From: Bacteroidota bacterium
Lineage (GTDB): Bacteria > Bacteroidota > Bacteroidia > Flavobacteriales_D > Crocinitomicaceae
Direction of reading: 5' to 3'
Assembly (NCBI GenBank): GCA_006226425.1
Contig: SBGX01000010.1
Coordinates: forward strand, 124,001-188,000
DNA length: 64,000 nt
In this document: positions 22,266-30,001 of the stretch, in pieces
How the letters are laid out: every line of letters begins with the position of its first letter
How positions within the stretch are numbered: the stretch's first letter is position 1
Notes under the pieces: model-generated
What the model saw: only the letters and a program-made list of their open reading frames with translations
Databases searched by the model: none
Told to the model about the DNA's origin: nothing
Position numbers and translations under genes: made by a program

Positions 22266-24944
22266 CTAGTAATTATCCAGGTAGAAGAGGTCGTATTCTT
22301 CTAAGTTACTTGTTTCAAATAACTTTTTCAAATTTTTCCGGGTAATCCCATACATCTTATTCTCGTGCAGGGAACTGACATATTGCTTGGTTCGTTTCAG
22401 TACTTTGATGTACTCCACCGCCTTATCTGCGTCAAATGGATCGATTAGAATGATACTCTGATCCTTTCCAAAGACCTTTGAACTGACCGTCAGATCATCC
22501 CGACTGAAATAGGCCCGGTTAAAGTCTGCTATTTTCGACTTGGCCAATACAGGATTTTCACGTGGCTCCAGGAAGATAATCACCCAATGGGCCGCATCAC
22601 CTTCGTATTCATAAATTCCTTTTTTCACCCGCGATCCGTCCTCATACTTAGAGACTCCTTTATTGATGAGCGCTATCAGTTCCTGTGCCCTCTTGGCTTC
22701 GTCACTTTTCGGGTAGTCTTTCACCAGGCGTTCCAATCCTGGAAGCATCAGTTTCTTATCTTCATTCATTTTTCCGAGGCACATCGCATGAAGTAACATA
22801 TACTTGGCCCGGAAGTGATTCTGCAGATCCTCATTGATTACCGTCTCACAGCTCGTTGCCACGAAACTATACAAGCCCCGGTTATAGCGTTCCAGTAATT
22901 TCTGGTAGTCATCCTGATTCAACTTCTCCAGTTCTTTCTGCTTCACGAAAAATTCAGGATCAGTTAGGTACTTGGCATAATCAGAGTCTGGAAATTGTTT
23001 TAAAATTTTCTCCTTATAAGGATACGATTTTGTTGGGTCTTTTGAATTGTAAAGTAAATACAGCTGATACAGAGACATCAAACCATAATTTCCGTTCGGA
23101 TCTTTCGCTACCACCTTCTCAAAGCGTTGAACGGCCAACTGATCTTCTTTCAACAAATCCTTGTAAATCACTCCCGCATCAAACAAGGCATTCAACATCC
23201 GCTCTCTGGATGCCTGATAAGCCGAATCACTGATCGGAAGTTTACTCAACAACGATTCTGGAGTCAGGGAATCAATTTCCGGGGTATCTTCCGTCTTGTT
23301 TTCTACGCTTAAACTATCGCCTTCCTGTTCTTCAAACTTAGCCAGTACAACTTTATCGCTTCGTCTCCAGTCATCCTCATTCTCTCGTTGTCCCCATTGT
23401 TTTCGGAAAGTTTCCAGTCCTTCCCCCTTCACCTTGGCATTGTTCCAAAAGAACTTGGTACTTGATTTTTGCTCGGCCAGTGCTGCCTGACGCGCCTGTA
23501 AATCCTTCAGACGTGCTTCCTCACGTGCCTTTCTCTCAGCTTCCTCCCGTTTTATTTTCTCCAGCACTTTCTTCACATAGCTTTCCCTTTCGGATGCTGA
23601 CATTTTAGCAATTCGCTGTACGCTATCTTCATAAGCTGCTGTTTCAACTGCTGCTACCAAATCTTTTAGTTTCAGCGCCTTGTTTTGGATAATCTCTCCA
23701 TTCGGATAATCGTCCGGAAGTACGGCTGCACAGCTGTCGTAATATTTCTGTGCCGGAATATATGCCCGATCTCTGAAACTCAAATCTCCCAATTTCTCGT
23801 ACGCCATCGCCTTTTGTCGTCGATTGCTCAATGAAACCAGAATAGAACGGGTAAGCAATTCCTTCCCTTTGACTTCGTCTCCTTCTTTAAAAGCGATATT
23901 TGCCAGTGCGTAATAAATCTGGTCTTTAAACTCCGTATTCTTATTGTCGCGCAACATCTTCTCCAACTCCTTCTTGAGCTTCTCTCCACCTCCCATCAAA
24001 GCTCTATTGATGCGTGCGTTAAAACTCATTTCGAATGGGGCACTGTAACGCAATACCTTGCCATAATGATACACGGCCTTCTCCGAATTATTGTTACGCG
24101 CATTTAACTGCCCAAGAATGAAGTGAATCCGGGCCTTCTCTTTTGATTTCTTACAAAATTCAAGCGCTTTTTCCAGGGCTTCAATGGCCTTTTCGTCATC
24201 TTTCTGAGCCAGCTGCAACTCACACCGCGTCAACTCGAGCAAATAACGGCTTTTCCTGGTAAATTTTGCTTTTTCCTCTTCTTCGTCTTTTTTCTTCTTC
24301 CCTCTTCTTTTCTTGCGCTTTTTTTTCTTTTTCTCCTTAGAGAACAATTTTCCAAAAAATCCTTTTTTATTCTTCTTCAATTCCTCGAGCTCTGCAATGT
24401 GCTTATCCAATTCCTTGATTTGGATCGCAGCTTCAGAAATCTTTTTGGTTTGAATATACGACCTTGCAATCCAAATTCCAGCCAGATATGTCGAAGGGTC
24501 ATTTTCAAAAAATTTCTTGACATACTTGAAGTTCTTGACCGCCCCATCATAATCTCTTCGATAATAGTTGGCAATTCCAATTGTCAGCCAGTTCTCATCG
24601 ATCCACGGATTGTGCTCACTTTTCTTTTTAGAAGGAACGGAAGCCGTTGGCATACTATGCTTGGCAATGACCTTCGTACATTTTGCGATGGCCGTATCCA
24701 GTGCAGGATAAAGCGCTGAAACTTCTTCTTCATTCGGAACCGGTTTGAGTGGAAGCAATTTGTAATAGTCTTCCTTCAAGGTATTCCGATAGGTCGTGAT
24801 TGATTGATCAATTAACTCATTCGCATTGAAATAGCCATTGTAATGTGCCGTCAAACCATGATAAGTCCTGTTCACGACGCGATTTTTTTCTGTTGAACAA
24901 GCCAACAAAAACAACATGAGCAGGAAACTTAAATAAAACTTCAT
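22266..24944 (-). CDS. sprE: T9SS/gliding lipoprotein SprE (PorW)
   Basis: An 892-residue TPR lipoprotein. The lipobox is LLACS (Cys16). The N-terminal sequence NRVVNRTYHGLTAHYNGYFN matches the start of SprE/PorW, which is needed for type IX secretion and gliding. Many TPR-like helical hairpins follow (RSRYLLELTRCELQLAQ, the KALEFCKKSKEKARIHFILG stretch, DYAKYL). There is a strongly lysine-rich insert near residues 190-225 and a highly charged KREEAERKAREEARL coiled coil near 460-490. Together with the T9SS cargo proteins in this window it implies a working T9SS. It leads a three-gene unit with the AtpZ-like gene. Confidence 0.85.
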   Translation of the reverse strand: MKFYLSFLLMLFLLACSTEKNRVVNRTYHGLTAHYNGYFNANELIDQSITTYRNTLKEDYYKLLPLKPVPNEEEVSALYPALDTAIAKCTKVIAKHSMPTASVPSKKKSEHNPWIDENWLTIGIANYYRRDYDGAVKNFKYVKKFFENDPSTYLAGIWIARSYIQTKKISEAAIQIKELDKHIAELEELKKNKKGFFGKLFSKEKKKKKRKKRRGKKKKDEEEEKAKFTRKSRYLLELTRCELQLAQKDDEKAIEALEKALEFCKKSKEKARIHFILGQLNARNNNSEKAVYHYGKVLRYSAPFEMSFNARINRALMGGGEKLKKELEKMLRDNKNTEFKDQIYYALANIAFKEGDEVKGKELLTRSILVSLSNRRQKAMAYEKLGDLSFRDRAYIPAQKYYDSCAAVLPDDYPNGEIIQNKALKLKDLVAAVETAAYEDSVQRIAKMSASERESYVKKVLEKIKREEAERKAREEARLKDLQARQAALAEQKSSTKFFWNNAKVKGEGLETFRKQWGQRENEDDWRRSDKVVLAKFEEQEGDSLSVENKTEDTPEIDSLTPESLLSKLPISDSAYQASRERMLNALFDAGVIYKDLLKEDQLAVQRFEKVVAKDPNGNYGLMSLYQLYLLYNSKDPTKSYPYKEKILKQFPDSDYAKYLTDPEFFVKQKELEKLNQDDYQKLLERYNRGLYSFVATSCETVINEDLQNHFRAKYMLLHAMCLGKMNEDKKLMLPGLERLVKDYPKSDEAKRAQELIALINKGVSKYEDGSRVKKGIYEYEGDAAHWVIIFLEPRENPVLAKSKIADFNRAYFSRDDLTVSSKVFGKDQSIILIDPFDADKAVEYIKVLKRTKQYVSSLHENKMYGITRKNLKKLFETSNLEEYDLFYLDNY

Positions 24945-24975
24945 TCGACGCTTTTTCCAATTAACACGAAAAGCG

Positions 24976-24983
24976 CAAATTTA
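24976..24983 (-). promoter_or_regulatory. -7 box (TAAATTTG) of sprE
   Basis: On the minus strand TAAATTTG matches the Bacteroidota -7 element, 31 bases before the sprE start. Confidence 0.45.
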
Positions 24984-25036
24984 TTGTAAAAAAATGAAAT
25001 TTCTATCCACGATCAATGGGAAGAGGACTTTCTGGG

Positions 25037-26188
25037 CTAAAACTGATATTTCAAGCCCAAATTCATACTCAACCAATGACGATCACGCAGTGCGTCTCCC
25101 CCCAGGAAAAAACGTCGCTTTATGTAATGATGGTATTGTGGCTCTATTTCTAAAGATATGCTTCTATATAAGTGTATGCTCGTTCCTGCTCCAAGGGAAA
25201 TAGCCTGTGAGAATTTTCCGACGCCTGGAGTACTTGATTTTTGAAACTGATCCAACGAAACTGGTCCTCCTTGCGGATGATCCCACACAAATTCATTTTG
25301 CATGCCTGCATTTAGATAAGCCGTCCAACGAGGTCTCTGGAAAACTTCGTACTTCAACGAAACGGGGATTTTTAGTGCTTGCAGGCGATCATACTTCGCT
25401 CCCGAACTCGTCTGTACGTCATATTGAAGATACCCCAGCGCCAAGCGCCAGGCCCATCGTTTCCCCAGATAGCTTCCGAGAAAGAGTCCCAGATCGGTCA
25501 TTTTTCGAACCCTTAAGACTTCATCAACTGTCTCTGAGGAATTGACTGCGGTGTAAATTGTTTCTTTCTTCGATGTAGGCAACACTTTTTGTCCCTCATA
25601 GGATTTACCTATCCAGACTCCCACTTCCCAAAGTGTATTCCGCTCTTTTATCTGAGGTTTCGAAATTTTTGTGATGTCATAGGAAGCAATGTCTAACGAA
25701 AATGGAGTCGCATCTGCCAGTTTCAAACTGCTTATAGGCAATTCCGCTTCAAGTCGTTCCTGATGAGTTTCTTCTTCGTTAAACCTTTCGATTCCTTTCT
25801 CTTTAAATAGCTGATCTTTTTTCTTTTTGGGTACTTGCTTTGGAGATTTTTTATTTACATTTTCTTCCTTTTTTTTCGGCTCATCCCACACATCACCTGT
25901 CTTTTTTGCAGACCTGGCTTCCGAAGAGTTCTGGCGCGTCATTTTAGCGCTCTGTTCTTGCTGCACATTTCCTTGTACCGATTCTACCCCAGAATGATCG
26001 TTCCACCAGAAGAGCACCCCAGAAAGACAAGCAGCCAGGCCTAGTGCATACCACCACCAAATGATTCCCCTCCGCTTTTCCTTCTCATCCAATCCAGCCT
26101 CTATTCGTTGCCATAAGTCATGACCCGCTTCCTCCTGATATGTTTCGAAACGCTGTTTTAACAAACCTGGCTTCTCCCTATTTTGCAT
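25037..26188 (-). CDS. Anti-sigma-like membrane protein with beta-barrel C-terminus
   Basis: A 383-residue protein with a mixed architecture. Residues 1-40 are hydrophilic and end in basic EKEKRR. One membrane helix follows (about 41-62, WWWYALGLAACLSGVLFWW). Then comes a long Lys/Glu-rich linker (about 65-150), and the last 190 residues are amphipathic beta strands (LGLFLGSYLGKRWAWRLALG, KYEVFQRPRWTAYLNAG) ending LGLKYQF. A terminal Phe is the usual BamA signal of outer-membrane barrels. It starts inside the stop region of the ECF sigma gene, as anti-sigma factors do. I infer that the N-terminus binds the sigma factor and the C-terminus senses or inserts in the outer membrane. Confidence 0.72.
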   Translation of the reverse strand: MQNREKPGLLKQRFETYQEEAGHDLWQRIEAGLDEKEKRRGIIWWWYALGLAACLSGVLFWWNDHSGVESVQGNVQQEQSAKMTRQNSSEARSAKKTGDVWDEPKKKEENVNKKSPKQVPKKKKDQLFKEKGIERFNEEETHQERLEAELPISSLKLADATPFSLDIASYDITKISKPQIKERNTLWEVGVWIGKSYEGQKVLPTSKKETIYTAVNSSETVDEVLRVRKMTDLGLFLGSYLGKRWAWRLALGYLQYDVQTSSGAKYDRLQALKIPVSLKYEVFQRPRWTAYLNAGMQNEFVWDHPQGGPVSLDQFQKSSTPGVGKFSQAISLGAGTSIHLYRSISLEIEPQYHHYIKRRFFLGGDALRDRHWLSMNLGLKYQF

Positions 26189-26765
26189 AATTCCATCTCC
26201 TTTCTTCGTCTTGTGACTCTTTTTCTATTAGTTGAATCAAGGCCTTTCGTGCCCTCTGGTACTGCGATTTGGAGGTGCCTACTGAAATATTCAGCATCCC
26301 GGATATTTCCACATGCGTGTACCCTTCCACCGCATAAAGGTTGAAGATCACCCGCTGACCTTCCGGCAACATCCGAATCTTCTTCAACAGTTCTTCCAAA
26401 TGAATTTGCTCCAGTACCTCCATATTCAATCGCTCTTCTTGCAGGTAGACAATTTGTACTTCATGATTCAACTGTTGTATCCGCTTTTTCTTGCGATAAT
26501 TTTCCATCGCCACGTTAATCGTGACCCTCCGCAACCAGGCTCCCAATTCTCCCCTTCCGGCGTAGGTATCCAAACTTTTAAAGGCCCTGATAAAACTTTC
26601 CTGTAAAATATCATCGCACTCATTCTCATCGATCGCGTAACGAACAACAACTCCCTTCAGCATGCCTACATAGCGGCTATACAGTTCGAACTGTGCCTGT
26701 CTATCCGACGAGATACAGGCCTTGATCAGTTGTTCATCCGTGTATGATCTGTAAGCTGATATAAT
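26178..26765 (-). CDS. ECF-type RNA polymerase sigma factor, non-ATG start
   Basis: A sigma-70 family protein with region 2 (ECDDILQESFIRAFKSLDTY, then AWLRRVTINVAMENYRKK) and region 4 (LPEGQRVIFNLYAVEGYTHV, then SQYQRARKAL). The first ATG (26663) would remove the first helix of region 2. The frame stays open upstream and codes a normal ECF N-terminus (DEQLIKAC, QAQFELYSRYVG), but no ATG, GTG or TTG exists between the upstream stop (26775) and that helix. Candidates are ATT at 26765, ATA at 26762 or CTG at 26729. I draw it from ATT (195 residues), which would be coupled to the preceding gene. It overlaps its partner membrane protein by 11 bases. Confidence 0.8.
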   Translation of the reverse strand: MISAYRSYTDEQLIKACISSDRQAQFELYSRYVGMLKGVVVRYAIDENECDDILQESFIRAFKSLDTYAGRGELGAWLRRVTINVAMENYRKKKRIQQLNHEVQIVYLQEERLNMEVLEQIHLEELLKKIRMLPEGQRVIFNLYAVEGYTHVEISGMLNISVGTSKSQYQRARKALIQLIEKESQDEERRWNYAK

Positions 26766-26774
26766 CTTTAAATT

Positions 26775-27335
26775 TTATCTGAAATGAACCCCCAGAGTCC
26801 ATTCTATCCGATGTGCTAAGGTAACTGTTTCAAAATCTTCCCAACGGTCACTTTGCTCCGTTAAATAAGTGAAGCGATAAGCCAATGTGGACTGTATTCC
26901 AAAACGCTTTCCGGTATACTTTATTGCTCCTATTCTCAGTCCGGTAGTGAAGGCCTTTTGTTTCACAGACCAATCTGTCATGGGCATTTCATAACCCAAC
27001 ATCACTTCTGCAAATGGGCTGTCTCTTTTTCTCAGCAGATTGAAGCGTGTCATTCCATAAATCGGAACGTAACCTTCCCAATTCAAGGCTTCCAAACCAG
27101 CCCCCATACCAACACTCCATCGGGGAGTCAACTGCACTCCATTTTCAACCTGTAGAATGGGTGAAGCTGATTCTCCCGCAAGGATACCTGCTTTAATATT
27201 CAGATACATCGTCCTTTCTCGTATGTCTGGCTGCCCCCCCGTACTTTCCTGAGCCCTTACCAGTTGCGCACACAGCAACACCAGGCCGAAGCAAATTATT
27301 TTCCTTGCTCTTCTTTTCATGACCTTATTTTTCAT
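26775..27335 (-). CDS. Small outer-membrane beta-barrel-type protein
   Basis: A 186-residue exported protein. Start ATG 27335 (MKNKVMKRRARK) or 27320; either gives a signal peptide (IICFGLVLLCAQLVRAQ). The mature part is a series of amphipathic strands (MYLNIKAGILAG, LTPRWSVGMGAGLEAL, FAEVMLGYEMPM, TTGLRIGAIKYTGKRFG, RIEWTLGVHFR), consistent with a small porin-like barrel. A G7 run lies just after the signal peptide (codons STGGQ). It overlaps the Kunitz gene and its stop lies nine bases before the proposed sigma factor start, in the same frame. Confidence 0.72.
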   Translation of the reverse strand: MKNKVMKRRARKIICFGLVLLCAQLVRAQESTGGQPDIRERTMYLNIKAGILAGESASPILQVENGVQLTPRWSVGMGAGLEALNWEGYVPIYGMTRFNLLRKRDSPFAEVMLGYEMPMTDWSVKQKAFTTGLRIGAIKYTGKRFGIQSTLAYRFTYLTEQSDRWEDFETVTLAHRIEWTLGVHFR

Positions 27336-27573
27336 CGCATTCACATTCACATGCCTCCCGGGTTTCAAAGCCATATGTATTACACCCTCCGTATGACTTT
27401 TGCTCGCAGTTTCCTGTTTCCTGATTATAAAACCATCTCTCAAAATGAGCCTGGCAAACTTGATCCGTTGGAACCTGTTCCTGACACTTCGTCGATAATA
27501 CCTTTTTTTTATTCTTTTCACAGGAGTACAATGCCCCCAACACGAAAAGACCTAACATCCATTTCTTTTTCAT
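27325..27573 (-). CDS. Kunitz/BPTI-type inhibitor domain lipoprotein
   Basis: An 82-residue protein. The signal has a lipobox (GALYSC, Cys18). The mature part is a single Kunitz domain: Cys30, 40, 56, 64, 75 and 79 line up with BPTI cysteines 5, 14, 30, 38, 51 and 55, with identical spacings for 14-30, 30-38 and 51-55. The family hallmarks FYN (48-50) and YGGC (61-64) are present. One residue more lies between the first two cysteines and two fewer before the fifth. Cys77 is extra. The P1 position after Cys40 is Gln41, unusual for a trypsin inhibitor. It should sit on the membrane facing periplasm or surface; target unknown. Confidence 0.85.
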   Translation of the reverse strand: MKKKWMLGLFVLGALYSCEKNKKKVLSTKCQEQVPTDQVCQAHFERWFYNQETGNCEQKSYGGCNTYGFETREACECECDEK

Positions 27574-27597
27574 CTGATTCGTGGATTACGATTTAAC

Positions 27598-28857
27598 TTA
27601 AACGAATGCGATTCGACTCAGCAAACGAATATTCTCCGGATCACTGTAATCATACTGGTAGAGTCCATCATCCCCAATGAGGATGGCCACATCTCCCAAA
27701 AGAATCACGTCTGTCGCCTGAATTTGTCCGAAGCGCTTGATCAAATGGTCTCCGGCATTTTCCGGTTCTGTCGCATCAAATACCTTTAGTCCCTTTTTTC
27801 CGTCACAGACGAAAAGTAGCTTCCCATCGATTCCCAATCCATGTGGATTTTTGAGCTGATAGGAACGCATTAACATGGGGCTGCTACAATCGCTGATATC
27901 AATAATATCCAATTGATTGGAAACACCGGAACATGGTCCCCCGGAACGAATCGTGACATAAGCATATTCTCCCTGAACCACTACCGGATCACATGCCCTG
28001 GCATGTCTAATGGAACCCATCTTGGTTGGTTGTGCCGGATTTTCTGTGCTTAGGATCATCATTCCACTTGTCGTCCCCACGAAAAGTTTGTCTTCATGCG
28101 GAAATAAGGTCTCCACGTCCCAGGAAAGGGGCAGTTCTTCACCCTCTTGGGGGTCAGATGGATTTGACAGGTCAAAATTATTGAGCACGCTGTTTTCCAT
28201 CGCATAGAGGTAATCATTGACAATGGCCATTTGAGCAATCGAACCTGCCTGTCCAACAGACATCCCGGAAGACTTTTGAAGGGATGTATTCAGCGTCATT
28301 ACTTCGCAATTTGCACACCCGATCCACATTTGATCCTGCTCTATGTCTTCCTTATGTTCCACCACTTTCCAGGAGGTTACCACTCCCAGATTCCGATCCA
28401 CGGATTCCAGGGGATAATTATTCTCCTTAACTGGTAGTGCCATCGGAAAGACATCCTCTACTCTTTTTATTTCTTTGGGATTCTGAAGATCCGAAATATC
28501 CAGGACCAGGAGATCAATCAAGGCACTCACGTACATATAATTTCCCCGAATGGCTAAACCGCTGCAACCTACAATGCTTAGGAAGCCTGTCTTGACGGGG
28601 CTTTCGGGATTGGAATTATCTATAAAGTGAATCCCTTCATTGGGTTCGACAATAAACAGAAATCGCTCATGATAATAGATATTCCCCTTCTTTCTGAGTA
28701 GTCTGGGAGCTTCAAAAATGGCCTCCCGTCGAAAATCATCAACGCTTGTGTAAACCGGCTGATAACTTTTATAGTTGCGATACACTTTGTCCCGGCAAGA
28801 AACCGACAAGACGGTCAGCAAGGGAAGAAAATAGAGAAACCTGACTTTTTTCATCAT
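27598..28857 (-). CDS. LVIVD-repeat beta-propeller lipoprotein
   Basis: A 419-residue lipoprotein with lipobox LSVSC (Cys21). The mature part is built of repeats of the LVIVD type, such as YMYVSALIDLLVLDISDLQN, LYAMENSVLNNFDLSNPSDP, LFVGTTSGMMILSTENPAQP, LLFVCDGKKGLKVFDATEP and ILIGDDGLYQYDYSDPENI. This pattern forms a beta-propeller of about seven blades, probably on the outer membrane. No catalytic site is seen. It is the first gene of the five-gene unit that includes the Kunitz lipoprotein 24 bases downstream and the sigma/anti-sigma pair. Confidence 0.85.
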   Translation of the reverse strand: MMKKVRFLYFLPLLTVLSVSCRDKVYRNYKSYQPVYTSVDDFRREAIFEAPRLLRKKGNIYYHERFLFIVEPNEGIHFIDNSNPESPVKTGFLSIVGCSGLAIRGNYMYVSALIDLLVLDISDLQNPKEIKRVEDVFPMALPVKENNYPLESVDRNLGVVTSWKVVEHKEDIEQDQMWIGCANCEVMTLNTSLQKSSGMSVGQAGSIAQMAIVNDYLYAMENSVLNNFDLSNPSDPQEGEELPLSWDVETLFPHEDKLFVGTTSGMMILSTENPAQPTKMGSIRHARACDPVVVQGEYAYVTIRSGGPCSGVSNQLDIIDISDCSSPMLMRSYQLKNPHGLGIDGKLLFVCDGKKGLKVFDATEPENAGDHLIKRFGQIQATDVILLGDVAILIGDDGLYQYDYSDPENIRLLSRIAFV

Positions 28858-28920
28858 TTGAAATTTGTTGTTTATTCCTATGATGAATCTGATGCAAAAA
28901 GGGTTGCAAGAAGTCCGGAT

Positions 28921-29433
28921 TTATTTTTCGATTTTCCGTTGACGCTTATTGATCAACACGAACTTGAGGGCAATAAAGAAATCATTCAACTCTGTAAAAT
29001 CATCGGCCGGCAATCTGAAATAATAGCCACATTGCAAGTGGAATTGCGTCAGACGAAAACCAAGTGCCGGAGCCAGTCCTAGCCGGCTACTAATAAAGTT
29101 ATTGTGGTAAGCCAGTTGGAAACCGTAAGTCAGTCCAACCCGACTGTGCTGATACCAGTATCCACCTTCCAAACCAAGTACCGATTGGGGGAAATTATAG
29201 TTCATCCCCAGTCGAAAGGCCCGAATCGTAGGTCGGATTAATTTTACCTTTTTCAATTGTAACTCTCCTCCCAACTCTAAAAAATTGTACTTCCCTTGCT
29301 GGACACCTACATAGGGACCACTTCGCTTCACTTTGATCGAAGGTCCATCCAGAGTCATTGAACTCCTGAAATTCTGAGCCTGAAACCCAGAAAATAACAG
29401 GGAAAAGAAGGCCATCAGTATGAATTTATTCAC
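28921..29433 (-). CDS. Outer-membrane beta-barrel-type protein
   Basis: A 170-residue exported protein with signal peptide FILMAFFSLLFSGFQAQ. The mature part alternates hydrophobic and polar residues in short strands (FRLGMNYNFPQSVLGLEGGY, HSRVGLTYGFQLAYHNN, LAPALGFRLTQFHLQCGYYF, FFIALKFVLI), as in small outer-membrane barrels. I recognise no named family. It starts eight bases inside the cvpA gene, in the glyS-cvpA unit. Confidence 0.62.
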   Translation of the reverse strand: MNKFILMAFFSLLFSGFQAQNFRSSMTLDGPSIKVKRSGPYVGVQQGKYNFLELGGELQLKKVKLIRPTIRAFRLGMNYNFPQSVLGLEGGYWYQHSRVGLTYGFQLAYHNNFISSRLGLAPALGFRLTQFHLQCGYYFRLPADDFTELNDFFIALKFVLINKRQRKIEK

Positions 29434-30001
29434 GTTCTTCTATTTGAGGGTTTATGACGGGCGGTGAGAGTGAGTCCTGTTCATTCCCAAACAACCAGAT
29501 ATTTTCCAGGCTATCCAATTGATTCAAAAATTGACTTTCCTTCATACTCGGAATCGTATATAAAGATAGCTGACAAAAGGGCTTGTACAACAATGAATCT
29601 TTCTTCACCTGACTTTCTTCCGGACTAAAACCGTGCCAGATCAGAAAGAGAATACTGATCAAATAGGCGATCTTGAGCATGGAAAAAACAGCACCGGCCA
29701 ATTTGTTAAATACGGACAACTGAGCAATTTTTACCAGTTTTTCAAGCGCCTTTCCAGCGAAATATACGGCTGCCCCCACTCCAAGAAAGAGGATTAAAAA
29801 GGATACAACGGGAAGATAGGATGGTTCCAGGCGCACCTCCCCCACCAATCTTTCAGACAACATATCCGAAAAGCGAATGCCGGCATAAATCCCTACCAGG
29901 AGGGCGAGCAGTGTAAATACCTCAATGATCAAACCCTTGCGGAAGCCATTCCACGCGGCCCAGACCATGGGGATTAAAATCAGTACATCGAGGTAATTCA
30001 C
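29426..30001 (-). CDS. CvpA family membrane protein
   Basis: A 191-residue protein with four membrane helices in the first 130 residues and a soluble tail. The start NYLDVLILIPMVWAAWNGFR, then KGLIIEVFTLLALLVGIYAG, is the CvpA signature (D..i...l.....G..kGli.e...l). The family was named for colicin V production and is now linked to envelope integrity. It begins two bases after the glyS stop codon and overlaps the following gene, so it is in an operon with glyS. Confidence 0.88.
   Translation of the reverse strand: MNYLDVLILIPMVWAAWNGFRKGLIIEVFTLLALLVGIYAGIRFSDMLSERLVGEVRLEPSYLPVVSFLILFLGVGAAVYFAGKALEKLVKIAQLSVFNKLAGAVFSMLKIAYLISILFLIWHGFSPEESQVKKDSLLYKPFCQLSLYTIPSMKESQFLNQLDSLENIWLFGNEQDSLSPPVINPQIEERE

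Follow-up and report, generated by a model that had tools for sequence, protein, structure and literature searches.

The stretch of DNA considered here (henceforth the window) comprises 64,000 nucleotides (nt) of contig SBGX01000010.1, positions 124,001 to 188,000, from a bacterium of the family Crocinitomicaceae (Bacteroidota; assembly GCA_006226425.1). On its minus strand, from position 28857 to 25037, lie five genes head to tail, which an initial annotation made from the sequence alone had described as a cluster of lipoprotein genes with an extracytoplasmic function (ECF) sigma/anti-sigma pair. All five were found, with short gaps or overlaps between them. The first (27598..28857) encodes a beta-propeller lipoprotein of the LVIVD family (PF08309, 4e-21) with its lipobox cysteine at residue 21. 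The second (27325..27573) encodes a Kunitz-domain lipoprotein (PF00014, 4.8e-7, 30.3 bits, the cut-off being 21) and occupies what we shall call the slot, a position whose occupant is optional. Then come a small exported beta-barrel-like protein, BRL (about 26775..27335), with a signal peptide recognised by eye and without a lipobox, and the ECF sigma factor (26178..26765), which matches Sigma70_r2 (1.6e-14) and Sigma70_r4_2 (5.3e-16), was placed in a tree with its relatives, and resembles the factors called Das. The last gene (25037..26188) encodes a membrane protein that has an anti-sigma-like head and matches OMP_b-brl (2.7e-6), a putative anti-sigma factor of the type called Dma; the sigma/anti-sigma pair of the initial annotation is supported. 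Signal peptides and lipoboxes were called throughout by a simple pattern, by hydrophobicity and by eye.

The genes are closely packed. The LVIVD and Kunitz genes are 24 nt apart, the Kunitz gene overlaps that of BRL by 11 nt, BRL and sigma are separated by 9 nt (provided that the sigma gene starts with the ATT at 26765, as discussed below), and the sigma and anti-sigma genes overlap by 11 nt. A predicted ECF promoter, TGCAACC-N16-CATCA, lies on the same strand at 28881..28908, 23 nt ahead of the LVIVD ATG, and it is the one match of ECF type in the operon. A scan for the sigma-70 consensus gave fewer sites than were found in shuffled sequences (4 vs 7.9), and no terminator-like sites were found within 24900-29500. 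Since the one matching ECF-type promoter stands at the head and no terminator-like site lies within, the five genes probably form a single transcription unit. Separate promoters that would divide the cluster into unrelated transcripts, a prospect raised in the initial annotation, did not appear in these computational scans.

The last protein of the operon had been taken for a membrane protein with an anti-sigma-like head. The head is there, but a C-terminal barrel of outer-membrane type had been overlooked. In the AlphaFold model (mean pLDDT 64 overall, above 90 across much of the barrel), a helix of residues 23-65 (25994..26122, minus strand, like the two segments that follow) begins as the cytoplasmic head, with a nearly invariant Trp26, and continues into the single transmembrane (TM) segment, the most hydrophobic stretch of the protein (about residues 42-60). 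Residues 66-186 (25631..25993), mostly with pLDDT below 50 and without secondary structure, make up a disordered periplasmic tether, and residues 187-382 (25043..25630) make up an 8-stranded OmpA-like barrel. A Foldseek search of the barrel against the PDB gave OmpA as the top match (1.4e-7; TMt 0.78 for 1qjp), while the match to OMP_b-brl, at 28.1 bits, falls slightly below the cut-off of 28.7. The barrel architecture was modelled for the window protein, which is predicted to span the whole cell envelope with its barrel in the outer membrane, and its head is, by analogy, the putative sigma-binding domain. In most of the relatives' loci examined, the open reading frame (ORF) after the sigma gene likewise starts with a conserved-Trp head followed by one TM segment; in a few, the TM segment sits deeper in the protein or the ORF is cut short, and at two loci (L007 and L034 in our numbering, where L denotes loci and G genomes) no head/TM ORF was obtained after the sigma gene. 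Mean column identity of the anti-sigma proteins is 24%, in an alignment that includes relatives from Parabacteroides and Bacteroides sp. 519. BRL, the second barrel, is weakly related to the barrel of the anti-sigma protein (32% probability, E 5e-4). The anti-sigma protein of G012 (L102 3737-5215, minus strand) appears by eye to have its head tandemly duplicated ahead of the TM helix.

The initial annotation had proposed looking for LVIVD and ECF sigma genes side by side in other Bacteroidota, and they do recur together. LVIVD is found at E <= 1e-60 in 22 of 200 genomes of the window's family, and in 20 of these 22 a sigma gene lies beside it; of the two exceptions, one contig ends first (G119) and the other genome (G049) has no sigma match in the stretch fetched. 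The LVIVD gene of G049 (L320 / L150) carries the strict form of the promoter described below and an in-frame TGA. Among 80 LVIVD loci of named genomes, 31 have a similar sigma gene within about 3 kb and 2 more have an anti-sigma match only. The order of the genes varies: sigma-anti-sigma-LVIVD in Parabacteroides, Dysgonomonas and others, LVIVD-barrel-sigma-anti-sigma (henceforth the module) in Crocinitomix and its kin, and sigma-anti-sigma-LVIVD-barrel at L107, in another family of the order. BRL, which has no Pfam match, can be aligned with homologues encoded next to LVIVD in relatives, and it recurs beside LVIVD and sigma. The cluster is therefore not confined to the window, and it is very improbable that unrelated genes lie together here by chance. 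The absence of Kunitz from most relatives' versions of the cluster would suit such an accident; the recurrent gene set, the overlapping genes and the shared promoter at the head contradict it, all the more because the strict promoter, unique in the window's genome, stands at the head of this very operon.

The operon's sigma factor may itself read that promoter. In the general form GCAAC-N17-CAT[CT]A, the motif stands before LVIVD at every one of the 19 module loci, where chance would give 0.0014 per 360 nt. The count is partly so by construction, since module loci served both to derive the motif and to tally it. The 19 were a manual selection that left out L143-L145 (where LVIVD runs past the contig end), L107 (different order) and L137 (which ends before sigma). 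A looser motif stands ahead of 13 of the 27 other sigma genes of LVIVD loci, where 0.009 would be expected. The strict form, TGCAACCnTTTn12CATCA, was counted 28 times across 200 family genomes, 17 of which carry it (a reversed control gave 1 site); it is present in 13 of the 22 LVIVD-positive genomes and in 4 of the 178 others, with a Fisher p of 1e-11 that ignores kinship; the searches for LVIVD and for the strict motif each covered 200 family genomes, taken as the same 200. Twelve of the 28 sites lie ahead of LVIVD, mostly at the same loci that gave the motif. Twelve of the remaining 16 have, 18-42 nt downstream, an ORF with a hydrophobic, signal-like N-terminus, whereas among 6000 positions drawn at random from these loci, 260 are followed by such an export-signal ORF. 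An earlier choice of ORF had used a score favouring lipoboxes, and it was repeated blind to the signal, taking the longest ATG ORF 5-60 nt downstream; in this repeat, the ORF at L311 was not export-like, and L309 (contig edge), L310 and L312 gave no ORF.

Some of the genes behind the strict sites resemble those of the slot: the L314 protein shares homology with the slot protein found at L145 (8e-24), that of L275 with a slot protein of L102 (1.1e-8), and that of L306 is a DUF6970 protein (5.7e-9), as is the product of a slot gene of L002. Small lipoprotein genes not linked to the cluster, with the strict promoter 19-31 nt upstream, were seen at L286, L307, L288, L323, L317 and L304, the protein of L288 having a weak PrcB_C match below the cut-off. 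On the strength of such unlinked, promoter-bearing genes, a wider regulon is predicted in some genomes.

Taken as a whole, the five genes are probably an autoregulated envelope-signalling operon of Dma type that drives surface lipoproteins, and we hold this with good though not full confidence; the role in the envelope that the initial annotation had supposed gains support. According to the model, the N-terminal head of the anti-sigma protein would hold the ECF sigma factor in the cytoplasm, while the rest of the protein would cross the inner membrane once, run through the periplasm as a disordered tether and end in its own 8-stranded barrel in the outer membrane. That barrel is the likely sensor. 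A disturbance of the outer membrane, or a ligand, would act on it and cause the sigma factor to be released. The freed sigma factor would then transcribe from the GCAAC/CATCA promoter ahead of LVIVD, and the operon would yield more sigma and anti-sigma factor, the LVIVD propeller, the variable small lipoproteins (in this case Kunitz) and the second barrel, with weak non-AUG initiation keeping sigma below the level of anti-sigma.

Several counts weigh against the model, over and above the circularity and the kinship just mentioned. Neither sigma nor anti-sigma was found at 47 of the 80 LVIVD loci of named genomes (some of them on short contigs). The looser motif is missing ahead of 14 of the 27 other sigma genes, and outside the module the motif stands directly ahead of LVIVD at 1 of 73 loci, the other 72 being without it. 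Nine of the 22 LVIVD-positive family genomes lack the strict site. In the window's own genome the strict motif occurs once, ahead of the operon, so a wider regulon is not apparent there (a second promoter-like match, with 17-nt spacing, was set aside because it lies within a coding ORF). Finally, GCAAC-N16..18-CATC was found within 130 nt ahead of none of 30 distinct Kunitz genes. With the motif directly ahead of none of them, Kunitz can be controlled by sigma only from inside the operon, and Kunitz genes that lie elsewhere are apparently no part of this regulon.

The initial annotation had placed the Kunitz and propeller lipoproteins on the sensing side, and one may imagine that LVIVD, perhaps with Kunitz, gates the barrel of the anti-sigma protein and loses contact when a protease binds or cleaves. 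This is rather unlikely. In its favour, LVIVD lies beside sigma/anti-sigma genes in several orders across Bacteroidota, it is better conserved than the anti-sigma protein (mean column identity 48% as against 24%), autoregulation is compatible with a sensing role, and the structural matches of the LVIVD model (a propeller, mean pLDDT 86) include BamB, a propeller lipoprotein that associates with a barrel. The likeness to BamB, also a beta-propeller lipoprotein of the outer membrane, is generic, however (TM about 0.5-0.6, about 9% identity): BamB is one of 850 matches in the PDB at E <= 0.001, of which the top two are eukaryotic. Furthermore, second LVIVD copies (L108, L109, L146-L149) and distant ones (L110, L111) have no sigma match nearby, and Kunitz is optional, being replaced elsewhere by unrelated small lipoproteins. 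Because the anti-sigma protein has a barrel of its own, and because the same promoter stands ahead of unlinked small lipoprotein genes in relatives, as one would expect of outputs, the lipoproteins, Kunitz included, look like the output of the sigma factor rather than its sensor. LVIVD and the slot lipoproteins may be exposed at the cell surface.

If the lipoproteins are output, then what might the Kunitz protein do? The window copy keeps the six canonical cysteines and, by eye, has one extra; its P1 residue is Gln and its P1' residue Ala. A Kunitz domain occurs in 25 of 200 family genomes and in 6 of 395 genomes of the phylum (the window's genome being in both sets). Among 29 parsed sequences, P1' is Ala in 28 and P1 is Gln (14), Met (5), Ala (3), Leu (3), Glu (2), Asp (1) or Phe (1), never Lys or Arg; a thirtieth, from L203, outside the parsed set, has Asn. 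The match at L206 covers half the profile. In the other 29 genomes with Kunitz, a sigma gene adjoins it in 4 (G086, G103, G089 and G231), LVIVD without sigma in 2 (G346 and G516) and DUF6970 in 6, and in 17 of the 29 no sigma, LVIVD or DUF6970 match lies within about 6 kb. Given the background of 28 sigma matches in the window's own genome, adjacency to sigma within about 1 kb in 4 of 29 has a rough binomial p of 0.001, kinship being ignored. The association with ECF sigma genes supposed by the initial annotation thus exists, but with Kunitz as an optional part: the domain lies inside the module in the window, L136 and L139 only, and the idea that it is a fixed component was rejected. At L037, LVIVD and Kunitz are followed by a weak barrel match, and there the contig ends. 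In genome G231, from another family (L205 5875-8008), a Kunitz lipoprotein gene lies directly ahead of a divergent sigma gene, after which comes a gene whose product, a membrane protein, has an anti-sigma-like head and a TM segment; no LVIVD match was found nearby. At L196-L201, from six family genomes, a Kunitz lipoprotein gene lies next to one for a DUF6970 lipoprotein, with no sigma match nearby.

Elsewhere, the slot between LVIVD and sigma holds differing small lipoproteins, and at some loci none was recognised. Those in relatives include a type we call DSRCP (L077, L102-L104, L144), a DUF6970 protein (L002, 3.4e-23) and a lipocalin-like protein (L136, 1.5e-5), and the others belong to no recognised family. 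Six of the 8 slot proteins scanned had no Pfam match, and the two of those six compared with NCBIfam had no match there either. Perhaps, then, the operon answers foreign proteases, with the Kunitz lipoprotein inhibiting them at the cell surface. The six cysteines kept in the window copy and the conserved P1' residue suit this idea, as do the genomes in which Kunitz adjoins sigma or LVIVD. Yet P1 is never Lys or Arg, the scanned slot lipoproteins other than Kunitz match no inhibitor family, most of the other Kunitz genomes show none of the expected neighbours, and the promoter directly precedes no Kunitz gene. We regard a switch for protease defence as unlikely, and inhibitory activity of the Kunitz protein as conjectural.

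The sigma gene is real, as the initial annotation had it, but it has no canonical start near the proper N-terminus. In the window, conserved region 2 is preceded by neither ATG, GTG nor TTG, and 12 nt ahead of the ATT at 26765 the frame is closed by a stop codon. The first canonical codon, ATG at 26663, was rejected as the start since it would cut into region 2, inside which it lies. This leaves as candidates ATT (26765-26763) or ATA (26762-26760; aligned position), within 26760..26765 on the minus strand. In 19 of 23 sigma genes of the cluster or like those of the cluster, the first canonical start falls after a conserved Asp. The column alignment takes in 20 of these 23 (L105, L107 and L205, which has ATG, were left out), and in one of its columns 17 rows have a near-cognate codon (ATT 10, ATC 3, ATA 2, CTG 2); in the other 3 rows (L004, L132 and L183) such a codon comes 1-2 codons earlier. 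In the rows inspected, AUG was never seen at the aligned position. Together with L105, which has a TTG upstream, the near-cognate group forms one clade (support 100/98), with AUU, AUC, AUA or CUG at the one aligned position in 17 of its 21 members. L142 has both a TTG upstream and an ATT at the aligned place. Among the 25 NCBIfam matches listed for the window's sigma factor, the general sigma70-ECF model alone is above the cut-off.

Conservation of the protein begins at the same point. Pairwise identity is 0.04-0.15 over the ten columns before the near-cognate codon, 0.56 at the codon and 0.11-1.0 after it, the 0.56 being partly by construction, as the alignment motifs were placed by hand and mostly start at that codon; the register is supported by the conserved Asp 8 codons downstream (identity 0.81). 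In 18 of the 23 cluster genes the alignment reaches at least 5 residues upstream of the first canonical start. The same holds for 0 of 31 paralogues from the family, 1 of 19 from the window's own genome, and 2 of the 29 remaining sigma genes from LVIVD loci, of which one is at a contig edge and the other is broken. The exceptions among the controls are L072 (contig edge), L074 (broken) and L225. The 31 family ORFs came from 30 loci, far fewer than the matches listed, the 19 were those sigma genes that could be aligned out of 27 other matches, and an ORF was passed over if it aligned too far from the anchor. An error in a metagenome-assembled genome was rejected as the cause, since the record of Crocinitomix catalasitica ATCC 23190 (L002) has the same feature.

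Might the sigma factor start downstream at a TTG, GTG or ATG, or be reached from the upstream gene by coupling, read-through or frameshift? A TTG or GTG does lie 3-5 codons past the conserved Asp in 8 of the 19 sigma genes that lack a canonical start further upstream, and the upstream ORF stops within 12 nt in 10 of 21 examined, the window among them. However, the next canonical start in the window lies 25 codons past the conserved Asp, the upstream stops range from -90 to +4 nt in varying frames behind differing genes, and the climb in identity at the near-cognate codon speaks for a start there, so that we give this explanation little credence. Fusion of barrel and sigma by stop read-through was rejected as a general route, since upstream gene, frame and distance vary from species to species. 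With no canonical start, a shared codon column and protein conservation that begins there, the sigma factor most likely starts at a conserved non-AUG codon. From general knowledge, initiation at such a codon would be weak. It is conceivable, and we put it forward tentatively, that the clade has fixed the non-AUG start as part of the switch, so that a sub-stoichiometric and maybe fidelity-sensitive sigma factor controls a rapidly changing repertoire of small surface lipoproteins, Kunitz included.

Directly upstream of the operon, after a gene of the CvpA family, the window carries a gene for another small exported barrel-like protein (28921-29433; judged by eye, without a Pfam match). Just downstream of the anti-sigma gene lies one for a large tetratricopeptide-repeat lipoprotein (22266-24944), which we presume to resemble SprE/PorW, a protein of gliding and the type IX secretion system.

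In the open-licence literature, no paper was found with both 'LVIVD' and 'sigma factor', titles and abstract beginnings gave nothing on bacterial surface Kunitz proteins, the papers listed on non-AUG starts did not deal with ECF sigma genes, and ECF21 was not named in a separate listing. The locus links the Dma class of trans-envelope anti-sigma factors to a precise promoter and to small surface lipoproteins as the predicted output, and it gives a bacterial Kunitz domain a testable setting. If true, setting the stoichiometry of sigma and anti-sigma factors by a conserved non-AUG start would be unusual, and gene callers restricted to ATG, GTG and TTG would truncate or miss such sigma genes.

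A near-cognate start conserved in a regulatory gene has a precedent in the AUU of infC. The present gene differs in that it encodes an ECF sigma factor and has AUU, AUC, AUA or CUG according to species, and autoregulation of the kind known for IF3 is not implied. In FecI/FecR and in the ECF/anti-sigma pairs of polysaccharide-utilisation loci, a signal at the outer membrane likewise reaches an ECF sigma factor by way of an anti-sigma factor in the inner membrane. There, however, the receptor is a separate TonB-dependent protein, whereas here the barrel is fused to the anti-sigma factor.

The initial annotation knew of no described system of this composition, a statement to be tempered, since the regulatory core matches the Dma family as set out in passages of a recent account (PMC13088901). 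Dma of Bacteroides thetaiotaomicron has, according to those passages, an N-terminal head that binds sigma, one TM helix, a disordered tether and a C-terminal beta-barrel, with an ECF sigma gene adjacent (PMC13088901); the likeness is one of architecture, the pairs Dma1/Das1 and Dma2/Das2 having been matched by their published description. The same source reports that deletion of dma2 raises das2, the sigma gene that belongs to it (log2FC 4.54), and the neighbouring BT_1557 (6.00) (PMC13088901), an effect that fits the model of an autoregulated operon. The effects it describes for Dma/Das concern vesicle production and polysaccharide-utilisation loci, and neither LVIVD nor Kunitz figures in these passages (PMC13088901). 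What sets the operon of the window apart from Dma/Das is that LVIVD, a second barrel and variable small lipoproteins lie upstream in the same operon, and that its sigma factor has a start that is, most likely, other than AUG.

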